Positions 1,139 through 43,165 of a DNA stretch of 64,000 nucleotides are shown here, piece by piece (within the stretch, counting starts at the first letter, position 1; each line of letters begins with the position of its first letter). The position numbers were made by a program, and so were the translations under genes. Source of the stretch: Spiroplasma sp. BIUS-1 (GTDB lineage Bacteria > Bacillota_I > Bacilli_A > Mycoplasmatales > Mycoplasmataceae); assembly GCF_010365805.1 (NCBI RefSeq), contig NZ_CP048386.1, positions 62,001 to 126,000 of the forward strand, written 5' to 3'. Below the pieces are notes generated by a model. It was not told where the DNA came from. It worked only from the letters and a program-made list of their open reading frames with translations, and ran no database searches.

Positions 1139-3979
1139 ATGAATAAAAAAATAATTGTAAAAGGTGCAAGAGAACATAACTTAAAAAATGTTGATATAGA
1201 AATTCCAAAAGAAAAACTTGTAGTCTTCACTGGTCTTTCGGGAAGTGGAAAATCATCCTTGGCCTTTAATACTATTTATGCAGAAGGAGAAAGAAGATAT
1301 ATAGAATCACTTTCTTCTTTTTCTAGACAATTTTTAAAGTCAGTTGAAAAACCTGATGTTGATGAAATTGAAGGATTAAGTCCTGCAATTTCTATTGATC
1401 AAAAAACAACAAGTCACAACCCAAGATCTACAGTTGGAACAACAACAGAAATACATGATCATTTAAGATTGTTGTTTGCAAATATTGGAACACCATTCTG
1501 TGTAAATGGACATGGACCAATAAAAACTTCTTCTTTAAAAGAAATAATTGAAACAATTAAAAAAGAAACAAAAGAAGATGATCAAATTTTTATTCTAGCA
1601 CCAGTTGCTAGAGATAAAAAAGGAACCCACAAAGAACTTTTATCAAAACTTAAAAAAGAAAACTTTTTAAGAGTTCAAATAAATGGAGAGATAAAAAGTT
1701 TAGAAGATGAAATTGAATTAGAACAAAACAAAAGACACAATATAGATATTGTTGTTGACAGATTAATTTATAAAAGTGAAGATGAAGATTTACAATCAAG
1801 AATTTATTCTGCAATAGAAGTTGGGTTGGGATACTCAAATGGACTTATAAGAATAAATTATCCAAAAAGAAATAATGAAACAAAATTATTTTCAACTAAA
1901 TACTCATGTAGTGAGTGTGGTTTTTCAATTCCTAATTTGGAAGCAAACCTATTTTCATTTAACAAAAAGAACGGAGCTTGTGAAACTTGTGCTGGTCTTG
2001 GTGTTAATCTAGAAGCTGACCCTTCTTTAATAATTCCTGATTCATCACTTTCAATTAGAGGTGGAGGAATCCTTTATTATAAAAATATAGTTGACACTAC
2101 AAACATCGAATGACAAAAATTTAAATTAATGTGTGATTATTATTTAATTGATTTAGATTCTCAAATCAACAAACTAAGTGAAAAACAATTAAATGTAATT
2201 CTATATGGTAGTGAAGAACCTATAGAAACAAAAATAACAACAGTAAGTGGAAATGTTTTAAGATCTTTTGATTACATTGAAGGTGTAGCTACACTTATTG
2301 AAAGAAAATATATTGAAACTAAATCTGATGAGAACAGAAAATATTATGGAAAATACATGATGTCAAAAGTTTGCAAAACTTGTGACGGTAAAAGATTAAA
2401 TGATATTGCATTAAGTGTAAAAATTAATGGTCTTTCAATCGCTGACTTTGTAGAAATGACAATTGAAGAAGAATTAGCATTCTTATTAAATTTAAATTTA
2501 ACTGAACAACAAGAAAAAATTGCAAGTTTAGTTTTAAATCAATTACTTTCAAGAATTAGTTTTTTAAATGAAGTTGGATTAAATTACTTAACTCTTTCAA
2601 GAAGTGCAACAACTCTTTCTGGAGGAGAAGCACAAAGAATTAGATTGGCAAAACAACTGGGTTCAAAATTATCTGGTGTCCTTTATGTTCTGGATGAACC
2701 TTCAATTGGTCTTCACCAAAGAGACAATGATAAATTAATTTCCACTTTAAAAAAATTAAGAGACCTTGGAAATACATTAATAGTTGTAGAACATGATGAA
2801 GATACAATGAAAGCTTCTGATTGAATTGTAGATATCGGACCTGGTGCTGGAGTAGATGGTGGAACCATAACAGCACAAGGAACCTATGAAGAAATTTGTA
2901 AAAACCCAAATTCACTTACAGGAAAATATTTATCAAAACAATTATCAATACCAACTCCAAAAAAACGTAGAGGTGGTAATGGATTAAAAATTGAAATCAA
3001 AGGAGCTACAGAAAATAATTTAAAAAATATTGATGTAACAATTCCTTTAGGTAAATTTATTTCTGTTACAGGAGTTAGTGGAAGTGGTAAGTCTACTTTG
3101 GTTGAAGAAGTTATCTACAAAGGTTTAAGAAAAGAATTAAATAAAGAATTAATAAGACCTGGTAAATACAAATCAATGAAAGGTTTTGAGAACGTAGATA
3201 AAATAATTTATGTATCTCAAGATCCGATCGGAAAAACTCCAAGATCAAATCCAGCAACATATACTTCTGTGTTTGATGACATCAGAGACCTTTATACTGA
3301 AATACCAGAATCTAAAATTAGAGGATACAAAAAAGGAAGATTCAGTTTCAACGTCCCTGGTGGGAGATGTGATGCTTGTTGAGGTGACGGTGTTGTTAGA
3401 GTTGACATGCAATTCCTTGGTTATGTAGAAGTTGTTTGTGAAATTTGTGATGGTAAAAGATATAACGAAGAAACTTTACAAATAAAATACAGAGGAAAAA
3501 ATATTTGAGATGTCTTGAGTATGACTGTTCAAGAAGCTTATGACTTCTTTGAAAACATTCCAAAGATAAGAGAGAAGTTAGAAACAATTTTAGCTGTGGG
3601 TCTTGGATATATTAAACTAGGACAAAACGCTACAACTCTTTCTGGAGGAGAAGCACAAAGAGTTAAACTTTCAACTTATCTATTAAAAAAACAAACAGGT
3701 AAAACTATATTCCTATTAGATGAACCAACAACAGGTCTTCACATTGATGATGTTAGAAGATTGATTGATGTTTTAAATATATTAGTTGATCAAGGAAACA
3801 CAGTTCTTACTATTGAGCATAACTTAGACTTTATAAAAGTTTCAGATTACGTTATAGACTTAGGACCTGAAGGTGGAAGTGGCGGAGGAACCATTCTTGC
3901 CACAGGTACTCCTGAACAAATTATTGAAAACAAAGAAAGCTTTACAGCAAAATATCTTAAGGAGTATTTAAATGATTAG
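1139..3979 (+). CDS. uvrA: UvrABC excinuclease subunit A
   Basis: A 946-residue ABC-type ATPase that finds bulky DNA lesions and loads UvrB, normal length for the family. The first Walker A (GLSGSGKSS) is near residue 31, followed by a zinc-binding Cys pair set (CSECG and CETCAGLG), a first signature [17 protein letters not shown], a second Walker A (GVSGSGKST) near residue 645, a second zinc module (CDACWGDG and CEICDGKR) and a second signature [15 protein letters not shown]. Several in-frame UGA codons (for example at 2111 and 3380) read as Trp. The start follows uvrB closely. The last 8 bases overlap the start of folC, which suggests translational coupling. Confidence 0.98.
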
Positions 3980-22422: not shown

Positions 22423-22445
22423 TAAATTGTAAATTAAATTAAAAA

Positions 22446-22557
22446 GCTTTTATAAGCCAACATATAGGGTTGGCGTTTCTACAATGTACCAATACATTTC
22501 TAAAGGCAACATGAAAGGGATCTTTTTAATAGTGATAAAAAAAGGTTCCTTTTTTTC
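22446..22557 (+). promoter_or_regulatory. Purine (guanine-type) riboswitch with terminator
   Basis: Aptamer: P1 GCTTTTA/TAAAGGC; P2 GCCAAC/GTTGGC closing loop ATATAGG; junction J2/3 GTTTCTAC at 22475-22482; P3 AATGT/ACATT closing ACCAAT; J3/1 TC with C at 22500. The GG of loop 2 and CC of loop 3 fit the kissing contact. A C at the specificity position and a U in the J2/3 core indicate guanine rather than adenine or 2'-deoxyguanosine. Downstream, a stem at 22516-22550 followed by T residues is the terminator. P1 AAAGG.AAC could pair with GTT.CTTT of the terminator as an antiterminator. It precedes a nucleoside transporter operon. Confidence 0.85.
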
Positions 22558-39096: not shown

Positions 39097-39124
39097 TTAC
39101 TTTTTTCTTTTTTTTAGTTATAAC
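39097..39124 (+). promoter_or_regulatory. Possible distal promoter of the nrd leader
   Basis: TATAAC at 39119-39124 with TTACTT at 39097-39102 (16-base spacer), after a T-rich stretch. A start near 39131 would place the structured element below inside the transcript. Confidence 0.4.
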
Positions 39125-39152
39125 ATTATAGAAATAAAAAACACAATTTCAC

Positions 39153-39258
39153 AAAAAGACTGGATATTTGGTGAAACTCCAAAACTGTACCAGCACCTGT
39201 AATAAGGAAATAAATTAGTAATGATTTATAAGAATTTGAGTCAGAAACCAATCTTTTT
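39153..39258 (+). promoter_or_regulatory. Cobalamin-riboswitch-like structured leader of nrdFIE
   Basis: An outer helix AAAAAGA.TGG (39153-39163) pairs with CCA.TCTTTTT (39248-39258), enclosing a hairpin TTTGG/CCAAA with loop TGAAACT. The string GGTGAAACTCC followed by CTGTACCAGCACCTGTAA resembles the conserved core of cobalamin riboswitches, and GAGTCAGAAACCA (39238-39250) resembles the 3' B12 box. The element is short: the peripheral arms and the kissing-loop arm are not apparent. A terminator hairpin follows at 39313. I judge it a riboswitch of the cobalamin type or a derived variant; the ligand is not proven. Confidence 0.5.
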
Positions 39259-39312
39259 ATATTAAATCTTTTACTGGCTATAAAAGAGATATTTACAGAA
39301 TAATATTTTAGC

Positions 39313-39335
39313 CACGATACAAACATCGTGTTTTT
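39313..39335 (+). terminator. Terminator downstream of the nrd leader element
   Basis: Stem CACGAT/ATCGTG with a 6-base loop and five T residues, preceded by a larger pairing TGGCTA.AAAA (39275) with TTTTAGCCA (39306-39314) that overlaps the terminator's first bases and could act as the antiterminator. Confidence 0.7.
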
Positions 39336-39336
39336 G

Positions 39337-39379
39337 TTTCACTAAAAAGATGTACTTATACATTATTTGTTTTGTGAAA
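39337..39379 (+). other. Long stem-loop and repeat in the nrd leader
   Basis: TTTCAC (39337) pairs with GTGAAA (39379) and an inner ATGT/ACAT helix closes a 6-base loop. The left arm, TTTCACTAAAAAGA, nearly repeats 39147-39159, the start of the cobalamin-like element. The copies lie 190 bases apart. Confidence 0.5.
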
Positions 39380-39432
39380 TGATATATTTTAATTAATATT
39401 CATTTTTAACAACCCAAAATCTAGGCATTAAC

Positions 39433-39514: not shown

Positions 39515-40537
39515 ATGGCAAAGAAAAAAAATCAATATTACTATGATTCTCTTTCTCCAATTGAATTTGCAATGAACAAATTTAATGGAAGAATGAGATC
39601 AGTTAACTGAAATGTTATGAATGACGAAAAGGATTTAGAAGTTTGAAATAGAGCAACACAAAACTTTTGATTACCAGAAAAGGTACCAGTTTCAAATGAC
39701 TTAGTTTCATGAAAAACTCTAACTCCTGAATGACAAGAACTAATCACAAGAACTTTCACAGGACTTACGCTTTTAGATACAATCCAAGCAACTGTTGGAG
39801 ACGTAGCTCAAGTTCCAAACTCATTAACAGACCACGAACAAGTTGTTTATACTAACTTCGCATTTATGGTAGCTGTTCATGCAAGATCATATGGAACAAT
39901 ATTTTCTACACTTTGTTCAAGTGAACAAATTGAAGAAGCTCATGAATGAGTAATTAACTGTGATAGTTTACAAGAAAGAGCGAAAGCTTTAATTCCTTAT
40001 TATGTAGGAAATGATCCATTAAAATCTAAAGTTGCAGCAGCACTTATGCCAGGATTCTTACTATATGGAGGATTCTATTTACCATTCTACTTATCAGCTA
40101 GAGGTAAATTGCCAAATACTTCTGACATAATTAGATTAATTTTAAGAGACAAAGTTATTCATAACTACTACAGTGGTTATAAATACCAAAGAAAAGTTGA
40201 AAAACTTTCTCCTGAAAAACAAGCAGAAATGAAAAAATTTGTATTCGATCTATTATATGAATTAATAGATTTAGAAAACAAATTCTTATATGAATTATAT
40301 GATGGATTTGGAATTGCAGAAGATGCAGTAAGATTCAGTTTATATAATGCAGGTAAATTTTTACAAAACTTAGGGTATGAATCACCATTTACAGAAGAAG
40401 AAACAAGAATTGAGCCAGAAATATTTACTCAATTATCAGCTAGAGCTGATGAAAACCATGACTTCTTCTCAGGTAATGGTTCATCATATGTAATGGGTGT
40501 TACTGAAGAAACTTCAGACGAAGACTGAGAATTCTAA
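39515..40537 (+). CDS. nrdF: Ribonucleotide reductase small subunit, metal-free class Ie type
   Basis: A 340-residue R2 subunit that supplies the radical for dNTP synthesis. Class Ib sequence, but three metal-binding Glu residues are replaced: Val119 (FMVAVHARSY), Pro179 (LMPGFLLYGG) and Lys213 (LRDKVIHNYY). Asp88, His122 and His216 remain. This VPK set defines the metal-free class Ie enzymes of Mollicutes, in which a tyrosine becomes a DOPA radical; the equivalent is Tyr126 here. ATG 39515 is chosen because the ATG at 39508 is in another frame that gives no NrdF sequence. The first gene of nrdF-nrdI-nrdE. Confidence 0.96.
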
Positions 40538-40538
40538 A

Positions 40539-40994
40539 ATGCACGACGATGTCATCAAGATATCTCACAAAGATGTTAAGAGACCAAAAGGAAAAGTATT
40601 TGTTGTTTACTTTTCATCAATTTCAAACAACACTCATAGATTTATGGAAAAATTAGACGTAAATGAAGCAAGAATTCCTTATGAACTAGACGAACAATTA
40701 ATTGTAGATAAGGAATATGTTTTAATAACTCCAACTTATGCTGGAGGGGGCGGAGATACAAAAGGAGCTGTTCCAGCTCAAGTTGTAAAATTCTTAAATA
40801 ATGAAAAAAACAGAAACTTGTGTAGAGGGGTAATTGCATCGGGTAACACTAACTTTGGTGATACCTTTGCAATTGCAGGACCTATAATTTCCAAAAAATT
40901 AAAAGTACCATTACTTTACCAATTTGAATTATTAGGAACAAAACATGACGTGGAAACAATTAGAGAAATCCTAGAAGATTTCTGAAAGGAATAA
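40539..40994 (+). CDS. nrdI: Flavodoxin-like ribonucleotide reductase activator NrdI
   Basis: A 151-residue flavodoxin-type protein. The FMN loops are visible as [13 protein letters not shown] near residue 23, [16 protein letters not shown] and [14 protein letters not shown]. In class Ie systems NrdI provides the oxidant that converts the R2 tyrosine to DOPA, so its position one base after nrdF fits. The last codons include a UGA read as Trp (DFWKE). Confidence 0.96.
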
Positions 40995-40999
40995 AAATT

Positions 41000-43165
41000 A
41001 TGAACAAAGATAATATTAAAAGTCTTTCTGGTACAGATGAATCTGATGAATATATCAAATTAAATGCCAGAGCAAAATTATTTGTGCCTGGACAAGATAA
41101 CTTCAAACTAGATATTCAAGCAGCAGAATTGTACATGAAAGAACACATTGAACCAAATATGGTTAAATTCTCAAGTACAAAAGAAAGAATTGAATATTTA
41201 ATAACTAATCAATACTATGATGAAGAGGTTATGAATAGATACTCAATGGATCAAATTGATGAGATAACAAAATATGCTTACTCATTTGAATTTAAATTCC
41301 CAAGTTTTATGGGTGCATTAAAATTCTTTAATGCTTATGGATTAAAAACATTCGATGGTAAACAATATCTTGAAAACTATGAAGATAGAGTTGTTGCAAA
41401 TGCTTTATTTTTAGCTGGAGGAAACTTTGAAAAAGCTAAAAATATCTTAAGACAAATAATTTTAGGAAGATTCCAACCTGCAACTCCAACATTCTTAAAT
41501 GCTGGTAAAAAACAAAGAGGGGAATATGTTTCTTGTTACTTATTAAGGGTTGAAGATAACATGGAATCAATAGCTAGAGCTGTTACAACTTCATTACAAT
41601 TATCAAAACGTGGTGGAGGAGTTGCTTTATGTTTAACAAACCTAAGAGAATTTGGTGCACCAATTAAAAACATTGAAAACCAAGCTACTGGAGTTATTCC
41701 TGTAATGAAAATCTTAGAGGATTCATTCTCATATGCAAACCAATTAGGACAAAGACAAGGTGCTGGAGCTGTTTACTTAAATGTTCACCACCCAGACATC
41801 ATGTCATTCTTAGATACAAAACGTGAAAATGCTGATGAAAAAATCAGAATTAAATCATTATCATTAGGAGTTGTAGTTCCAGATATTACTTTTGAATTAG
41901 CAAAAGAAAATAAAGAAATGGCTCTATTTAGTCCTTATGATGTTGCTAAAGTTTATGGAAAACCATTCTCAGATATCTCAGTTACTGAAGAATATGAAAA
42001 CATGGTTAACAATCCAAAAATTAAAAAAACTTACATAAATGCTAGAAAACTATTCCAAGCAATAGCTGAACTGCATTTCGAAAGTGGATATCCATACTTA
42101 TTATTTGATGATACTGTAAACAATAACAACGCTCACCCAGTTGCTGGAAGAATTGTTATGAGTAACTTGTGTAGTGAAATTGTTCAAGTTTCAACACCAA
42201 GTGAATTTAATGCAGACTTATCATTCTCAAAAACAGGGGAAGACATTTGTTGTAACCTAGGAAGTATGAATATTGCAAAAACTATGGAAAGTGGAGAAGA
42301 GTTCTCAGAAGTAATTTATAACTCAATTCTTGCTTTAGATCACGTTTCAAGAAACAGTGATTTATCAAGTGCTCCATCAATTGAAAATGGAAACAAAAAT
42401 AACCATGCTGTTGGTTTAGGGGCAATGAATCTACACGGATTCTTAGCAACAAACCACATTTACTATAATTCACCTGAAGCCGTAGACTTTACAAACATGT
42501 TCTTCTACACAATGGCCTACCATGCTTTCAAAGCTTCAAACAAGTTAGCTAAAGAATATGGTTCATTTGCAGGATTTAAAATTTCTAAATTTGCTGATGG
42601 TTCATATTTTGATAAATATACAAAATGTGAAGAAAGTAAATGAACACCAGAATCAGACACAGTTAAAAACTTATTTGATAAAAACAATGTAACAATTCCA
42701 ACTCAAAAAGATTGAATTGAATTGTCAGAAGAAATTAAAAAAACAGGACTTGCAAACTCACACTTGATGGCAGTTGCTCCTACAGGATCAATTAGTTACT
42801 TATCATCATGTACACCAAGTTTACAACCAGTAGTTGCACCAGTTGAAGTAAGAAAAGAAGGAAAACTTGGAAGAGTTTATGTTCCTGCTTACAAAATTGA
42901 CTTTGACAATATGGGATACTACTCACTTGGAGCTTATGAAGTTGGACCAGATCCAATTATTGATATAGTTGCTGCTGCTCAACAACACGTTGACCAAGCA
43001 ATTTCATTAACATTATTTATGACAGACCAAGCAACAACAAGAGACTTAAACAAAGCATATATTAGAGCATTCAAAAAAGGATGTGCTTCAATATACTACG
43101 TAAGAGTTCGTCAAGAAGTTCTTGAAGATAGTGAAAACTATGAATGTGATGCTTGTGTAATCTAA
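41000..43165 (+). CDS. nrdE: Ribonucleotide reductase large subunit, class Ib type
   Basis: A 721-residue catalytic R1 subunit, normal NrdE length. Motifs: [20 protein letters not shown] with VSCYLL (active-site Cys), [35 protein letters not shown] and the C-terminal ECDACVI Cys pair that is re-reduced by thioredoxin or NrdH. ALMETA-like NrdE segment [11 protein letters not shown] and the [10 protein letters not shown] loop are present. It lacks the ATP-cone domain of class Ia. Five bases after nrdI. Confidence 0.97.

Follow-up and report, generated by a model that had tools for sequence, protein, structure and literature searches.

Streptomyces also possesses a B12-dependent ribonucleotide reductase (RNR). 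That B12 riboswitches may precede B12-independent RNRs, as was noted in the initial annotation of the locus described here, is borne out by Streptomyces nrdABS, where a cobalamin riboswitch lies before a B12-independent RNR (Borovok 2006, as cited in PMC5962746). In the corrinoid riboswitch of Priestia megaterium metE, a kissing loop stabilises P13, and the logic of the expression platform has been demonstrated by mutation (PMC10653944). A 2009 survey found that most Mollicutes cannot use cobalt (PMC2667541). Class Ie R2 proteins are defined by V, P and K instead of three metal-binding glutamates (PMC11846895). We analysed a leader preceding nrdFIE in the window, i.e., the whole stretch of 64,000 nucleotides to which coordinates without a prefix refer, located in the 0.915-Mb genome of a Mollicute (G000), and compared it with the 60-genome GTDB family of G000, which contains Spiroplasma- and Mesoplasma-type species.

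Anatomy and ancestry of the nrdFIE leader

The nrdFIE leader spans positions 39131-39340. It comprises, together with its promoter region and the genes downstream, the following features:

39119..39131, plus strand: likely -10 region TATAAC (39119-39124) and likely transcript start near 39131
39131..39144, plus strand: 5' strand GAAATAAAAAACAC; partner strand 39328-39340 (3' arm of the terminator, U-tract); duplex of -10.5 kcal/mol
39153..39163, plus strand: 5' strand of the P1/P3 arm, 10 bp with one mismatch, pairing with 39248-39258
39164..39166, plus strand: J3/4, AUA (canonical GAA; invariant G lost), from the junction comparison with relatives
39167..39183, plus strand: P4 UUUGG/CCAAA (39167-39171/39179-39183) with the 7-nt L4 UGAAACU, from Rfam alignments
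39185..39196, plus strand: P5/L5 (39186-39195) with the kissing CCAG (39190-39193), and J5/6, from the Rfam alignment
39197..39199, plus strand: P6 5' strand CUG, pairing with 39242-39244, then UAAUAAG
39210..39229, plus strand: short hairpin ATAAAT/ATTTAT in place of the P7-P11 arm
39238..39249, plus strand: B12 box remnant GAGUCAG (P6 3' strand), 3-nt J6/3 AAA (39245-39247), then CC
39267..39287, plus strand: P13 TCTTTTA/TAAAAGA with L13 CUGGCUA, whose CUGG pairs with CCAG of L5
39275..39314, plus strand: antiterminator UGGCUA (39275-39280)/UAGCCA (39309-39314)
39313..39340, plus strand: intrinsic terminator CACGAU-ACAAAC-AUCGUG UUUUUGUUUC, hairpin 39313-39330
39515..40537, plus strand: nrdF, R2 subunit of class Ie (VPK); 340 aa when TGA is decoded as Trp
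40497..40994, plus strand: nrdI, assigned by its position in nrdFIE; the listed ORF overlaps nrdF
41000..43165, plus strand: nrdE, catalytic subunit, sole PF02867 match in G000

The closest solved structures of NrdF are the Mesoplasma florum R2 proteins 6gp2 and 6gp3. At its V, P and K positions (FMVAVHA, LMPGFLLYGG, LRDKVIH; alignment to 6gp2), NrdF is identical to them, in keeping with the original assignment of NrdF to the metal-free class Ie. The true start of nrdI is probably an internal ATG near 40539. The promoter was placed on the basis of a TATAACA[AT]TAT[AT]G block that is strongly conserved in the leaders of ten relatives; a promoter-type scan gave no consensus match. The terminator noted earlier behind the core was recovered as a terminator-like hairpin at 39313-39330 followed by TTTTTGTTTC, one being found as compared to a mean of 0.1 in shuffled sequences. 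Past the terminator (39336-39420), GTTTCACT and TTTTGTGAAATGA are conserved among the nearest relatives, and TTTCAC/GTGAAA can pair. The possibility that the core is coding sequence was rejected by inspection, as its few changes in the alignment ignore codons.

The core motifs named in the initial annotation, GGTGAAACTCC (39170-39180), CTGTACCAGCACCTGTAA (39185-39202) and GAGTCAGAAACCA (39238-39250), are present, as is the enclosing 10-bp helix AAAAAGA.C.TGG (39153-39163)/CCA.A.TCTTTTT (39248-39258) with its single C/A mismatch. The inner part of this P1/P3 helix varies between species and is fully paired in G034. Rfam alignments revealed the P3-P6 four-way junction and the B12 box, the P3 side being weak in G035. 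Short leaders of this type occur in six species, including G000, G034, G035 and G039, which together with G029, G041 and G043 make up a nine-species clade. Within the six, P4/L4 is invariant except for one L4 position, and P5/L5-J5/6 except for one J5/6 change in G035. The P7-P11 arm is long in G045 and in the canonical relatives and short in the six species, where it is cut to one short hairpin; the earlier description of the aptamer as shortened is thus correct. The kissing arm, which had been thought missing, was found just downstream (P13/L13, 39267-39287) and is invariant in the six species, with CCAG and CUGG of the L5-L13 kissing loop unchanged.

In the Rfam check proposed in the initial annotation, model RF01689 matched the leader at 39153-39258 with 27.3 bits in cmscan (genome-wide E 1.4e-4) and RF00174 with 24.0 bits (E 1.6e-4), so the resemblance to cobalamin models exceeds chance, while both scores lie below the curated cut-offs of 36.5 bits (RF01689) and 31.5 bits (RF00174). 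The Rfam score as sole proof of cobalamin ancestry was dropped, because an FMN riboswitch (G000:259282-259319) attains 27.1 bits with RF01689 as well. This second match was likewise rejected as an extra copy of the leader: the region (L105) holds an FMN riboswitch of 106.7 bits, mistaken by RF01689 for AdoCbl-II, and the matching places in three relatives also hold FMN riboswitches. Within the nrdFIE leader, the covariance model of the FMN riboswitch (RF00050) gave no match, and those of the 2'-dG-I and purine riboswitches gave none up to E 10.

The orthologous leader of G045 scores 38.3 bits with RF00174, above the cut-off. A covariance model (R1) built solely from the six short leaders and run against the 60 genomes retrieved canonical cobalamin riboswitches of relatives, with 85.6 bits in G030, 72.7 and 70.6 bits in G058, 69.9 bits in G050, 68.5 bits in G033 and 68.2 bits in G057; each of the six short-leader species holds a single copy. 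On the strength of the G045 ortholog and of this reciprocal recovery, the leader is of common descent with accepted cobalamin riboswitches. The observation behind the initial annotation, a core resembling the cobalamin riboswitch, is confirmed, and its interpretation is partly supported.

B12 genes and selection on the leader

A cobalamin riboswitch before nrdF had been considered unexpected in a Mollicute; canonical ones are in fact common at this place in the family, usually accompanied by NrdJ and BtuR. A second PF02867 protein is present in many relatives, and the sole one examined, that of G033, is an 843-aa adenosylcobalamin-dependent RNR, NrdJ (NF005991, TIGR02504). In the same genome, a cobalamin riboswitch precedes genes for a small membrane protein, an ECF-S-like protein and BtuR. 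NrdJ, the adenosyltransferase BtuR and a B12-linked ECF S-component, a label that rests on membrane-protein pattern and gene order with no Pfam or NCBIfam match, occur in many Spiroplasma. The distribution of BtuR approximates that of NrdJ, G026 having BtuR without NrdJ. In G045 these genes are pseudogenes, nrdJ being split into several frames and btuR and the ECF-S gene being broken too.

Across the nine species formed by G000 and its eight closest relatives, neither NrdJ, BtuR, a PduO-type transferase nor a B12-binding domain was found above cut-off, and no clear B12-linked ECF-S was identified. Weak ECF-S matches in G034, G039, G040 and G035 (E 1e-6 to 1e-3) are to a different, longer frame. 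QueG was not found in G000. The search for nrdJ and B12-dependent enzymes suggested earlier was run and detected no NrdJ or B12-dependent marker in this genome; none of the markers of B12 use, synthesis or import searched for was found there.

Other members of the family show further combinations. No RNR large subunit was detected in G015, G017, G020, G021, G025 and G026. Cobalamin riboswitches scoring above the Rfam cut-off are nevertheless present in all of these except G025. As for BtuR, G020 and G021 yielded fragmentary matches alone, and G015 and G017 none. In G022, a cobalamin riboswitch lies 5' of genes for a purine nucleoside phosphorylase-family protein and a deoxynucleoside kinase (L090, G022:830545-833611, positions 1501-3065), and deoxynucleoside salvage may be under B12 control in the group of this species.

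In a tree of NrdF and NrdE, G045 is sister to the nine NrdJ-less species (98% SH-aLRT). In six of these the aptamer persists; its loss is seen in the other three, G029, G041 and G043. Among the six, 25-33% of 4-fold sites differ (14% in the closest pair), versus 0-3 differences in the 41-nt P4-P6 core, 0/21 in P13/L13, 0-1/8 in GAGUCAGA and 0-2/30 in the terminator; in the P7 region, 4-15 of 31 positions differ. Between G000 and G039, the corresponding values are 29% for 4-fold sites, 0/41 for the core, 0/21 for P13, 0/8 for GAGUCAGA and 7/31 for the P7 region. If the core drifted at the 4-fold rate, the probability of its remaining unchanged would be about 1e-6 (0.71^41, a rough estimate). 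In G029 and G043, 23-28 of the 41 core sites differ from the six. Since the core is nearly frozen in the six species despite their divergence at 4-fold sites and has diverged in G029 and G043, selection maintains it in the six, while elsewhere it is free to change. G035 has one P6 pair and part of P3 broken, as in decay. Chance similarity and a recent relic were rejected as explanations, given the conservation of the core as compared to 4-fold sites and the recovery of canonical members by R1.

Expression platform, pocket and possible readings

Covariation was assessed in eleven nrdF leaders that share this type of platform; as these were chosen for fit and include some close relatives, the counts lean towards structure, and more weight falls on the slid controls and on the existence of two versions of the 5'/tail helix. 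All seven P13 pairs (100%) are kept in the 11 species, five of them with changes on both sides, and slid controls came nowhere near this pairing. The antiterminator, an alternative to the P13/L13 fold that shares 2 nt with the terminator stem, shows two compensated pair changes, UGGCUA/UAGCCA versus UGGUCA/UGACCA in G057 and G058. The helix between the 5' end and the terminator tail exists in two unrelated versions (types A and B), ACAACUAAA...UUUAGUUGU and GAAAUAAAAA...UUUUUAUUUC, with duplex energies of -10 to -15 kcal/mol within a version and about -3 to -10 kcal/mol between versions; its complementarity has evidently been retained though both strands have changed. The terminator stem is nearly invariant and hence carries little covariation information, and P4, invariant in the six and thus without covariation, was left out of the evidence. 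Because P13, the antiterminator and the 5'-end/tail pairing covary in relatives, the expression platform is sound; pairing is kept among relatives' nrdF leaders, which was the covariation called for in the initial annotation. Constrained folds calculated without the kissing loop gave -39.3 kcal/mol for the ON and -36.9 kcal/mol for the OFF state, i.e., near balance with the antiterminated form slightly favoured.

J3/4 and J6/3 line the cobalamin pocket of cobalamin riboswitches. The junction before P4 reads GGGAA in all intact Spiroplasma cobalamin riboswitches listed, and its third G (J3/4) is replaced in all six short forms; J6/3 comprises four nucleotides (NANA) in intact relatives where it is readable and three in all six. 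Accordingly, none of the six combines the J3/4 G with a 4-nt J6/3, while the P4-L4-P5-L5-P6 scaffold is unchanged in them. The bases of both junctions vary somewhat among the six, which suggests more variation than expected for a sharply selective new pocket. Junction changes on an unchanged scaffold would resemble a change of ligand, and the variable bases would fit a relaxed pocket too. An A-to-C change in J5/6 was rejected as a pocket marker, as it is also found in a canonical riboswitch (L126).

The leader is probably a transcription attenuator derived from a cobalamin riboswitch and selected after loss of the B12 pathway. It descends from a cobalamin riboswitch and would work like one in its platform. 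Since the pocket is remodelled and its junction bases are variable, we regard B12 sensing by the leader as no more than putative and refrain from classing it with the B12-sensing riboswitches. The ancestor would have been a canonical cobalamin riboswitch by which B12 repressed the B12-independent nrdFIE while the B12-dependent NrdJ was at work. Loss of NrdJ, of BtuR and of the B12-linked ECF S-component followed in this lineage, but in the six-species group purifying selection continued to act on the switch, whose pocket was remodelled. The regulated termination that we infer would start with folding of the P3-P6 core, upon which CCAG of L5 would kiss CUGG of L13 and stabilise P13; with UGGCUA/UAGCCA blocked, CACGAU/AUCGUG would form and transcription would stop before nrdF. 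Otherwise, UGGCUA/UAGCCA and the pairing of the 5' end with the terminator tail would form, and nrdFIE would be transcribed. As to the regulator, the balance tips slightly towards some ligand still gating the attenuator: a compound other than a corrinoid (a deoxynucleoside or dNTP, perhaps) is conceivable but doubtful, and a scavenged corrinoid is improbable. Points against the attenuator reading are the two Rfam scores below their cut-offs, the loss of the aptamer in the sisters G029, G041 and G043, which makes it dispensable, the decay-like breaks in P6 and P3 of G035, the variable J3/4 and J6/3 bases, and the conceivable presence of a B12 importer unlike the one searched for.

That dispensability, together with a variable P3 side fitting a relaxed pocket, would also suit an aptamer that binds nothing, its core and kissing loop being kept to set the level of nrdFIE expression, as a constitutive attenuator or through RNA stability. 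The terminator, P13 and L13 are, along with the core, the most conserved parts, and such an element comes close to an even prospect; but L4, J4/5 and UAAUAAG, which are needed for the tertiary fold and not for the terminator, are conserved as well. The frozen P4-L4-P5-L5-P6 scaffold, set against 4-fold sites of which up to a third differ, and the coordinated junction changes common to all six would fit a B12 aptamer whose ligand changed after B12 loss and which now senses another metabolite (e.g., a deoxynucleoside or dNTP). By analogy with the 2'-dG-I riboswitch in the nrdF leaders of Mesoplasma, which occupies the same position in related genomes, a pathway product would be the most plausible ligand. 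This change of ligand, which the initial annotation had likewise proposed and which would also accord with a core conserved in G000 where NrdJ, BtuR and the B12-linked ECF S-component were undetected, is a tentative possibility, given that the junction bases vary among the six and that a single copy per genome leaves no regulon from which to infer the ligand.

An ordinary corrinoid-responsive riboswitch, with corrinoids entering by an unrecognised route and repressing nrdFIE, seems unlikely: NrdJ, BtuR, PduO, B12-binding domains, QueG and a B12-linked ECF-S were all undetected in G000, two otherwise invariant pocket features are changed in all six, and B12 repression of the sole RNR would presumably be harmful. 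Such a switch would be compatible with the retained core, B12 box and kissing loop, with the acceptance of several corrinoids by cobalamin riboswitches (PMC9600662), and with G015 and G017, whose riboswitches score above cut-off although neither an RNR nor BtuR was detected there. A functionless, decaying relic whose similarity stems from recent divergence would match the decayed leaders of G029, G041 and G043 and in part that of G035, but is very improbable in view of the unchanged core, P13 and GAGUCAGA between G000 and G039 at 29% 4-fold and 7/31 P7-region divergence.

Significance and comparison with known systems

Within one genus and its neighbours, graded stages are found: an intact switch with B12 genes, in G045 a switch still intact although the B12 genes are broken, a remodelled switch without B12 genes (six species), and loss of the switch (three species). 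The fate of a riboswitch once its metabolite leaves the cell thus becomes directly testable in this family. The data also point to a B12-dependent RNR and a B12 regulon in Spiroplasma, of which we found no description in the open literature searched; the search retrieved no paper linking Spiroplasma with cobalamin riboswitches and nothing on point for Spiroplasma and riboswitches with RNR or cobalamin. Ligand-changed riboswitches are known for the purine class and some others; to our knowledge, no cobalamin aptamer recognising a non-corrinoid is known. If the ligand has indeed changed, a remodelled B12 aptamer would control the sole RNR of the cell, and the pseudogene-bearing and decayed sisters would preserve steps of the transition. 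Elsewhere in the window, a purine riboswitch (RF00167, 47.5 bits, 22428-22522) precedes genes for a lipoprotein and an ABC ATPase resembling a nucleoside importer; its J3/1 reads TTCTA versus the usual GACTA (by eye), and its ligand may differ.

The nrdF-linked cobalamin riboswitches (RF00174; RF01689, AdoCbl-II) of G006, G050, G057, G058 and G045 precede the same gene at the same position and share with the leader the P3-P6 core, the L5-L13 kissing loop, P13, the antiterminator and a terminator with a 5' complement. Unlike these, the leader has its P7-P11 arm reduced to one hairpin, lacks the J3/4 G, has a J6/3 shorter by 1 nt, scores below the gathering cut-offs and resides in a genome in which B12-dependent genes were undetected. 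With Streptomyces nrdABS it has in common a cobalamin-type riboswitch 5' of a B12-independent RNR, whereas in G000 no NrdJ was detected and the RNR that follows belongs to the metal-free class Ie. Its platform logic matches that of the P. megaterium metE riboswitch (PMC10653944), for which the ligand response was demonstrated, whereas here the logic is read from sequence; a further difference from metE is the potential pairing of the terminator tail with the RNA's 5' end. The 2'-dG-I riboswitch (RF01510) of Mesoplasma and relatives likewise sits in the leader of this operon but has an unrelated fold. Such riboswitches were located ahead of nrdF in Mesoplasma grammopterae and in two further genera (L002:2832-2895, L222:733-796, L223:713-776); the sensor in the nrd leader thus differs between neighbouring lineages.
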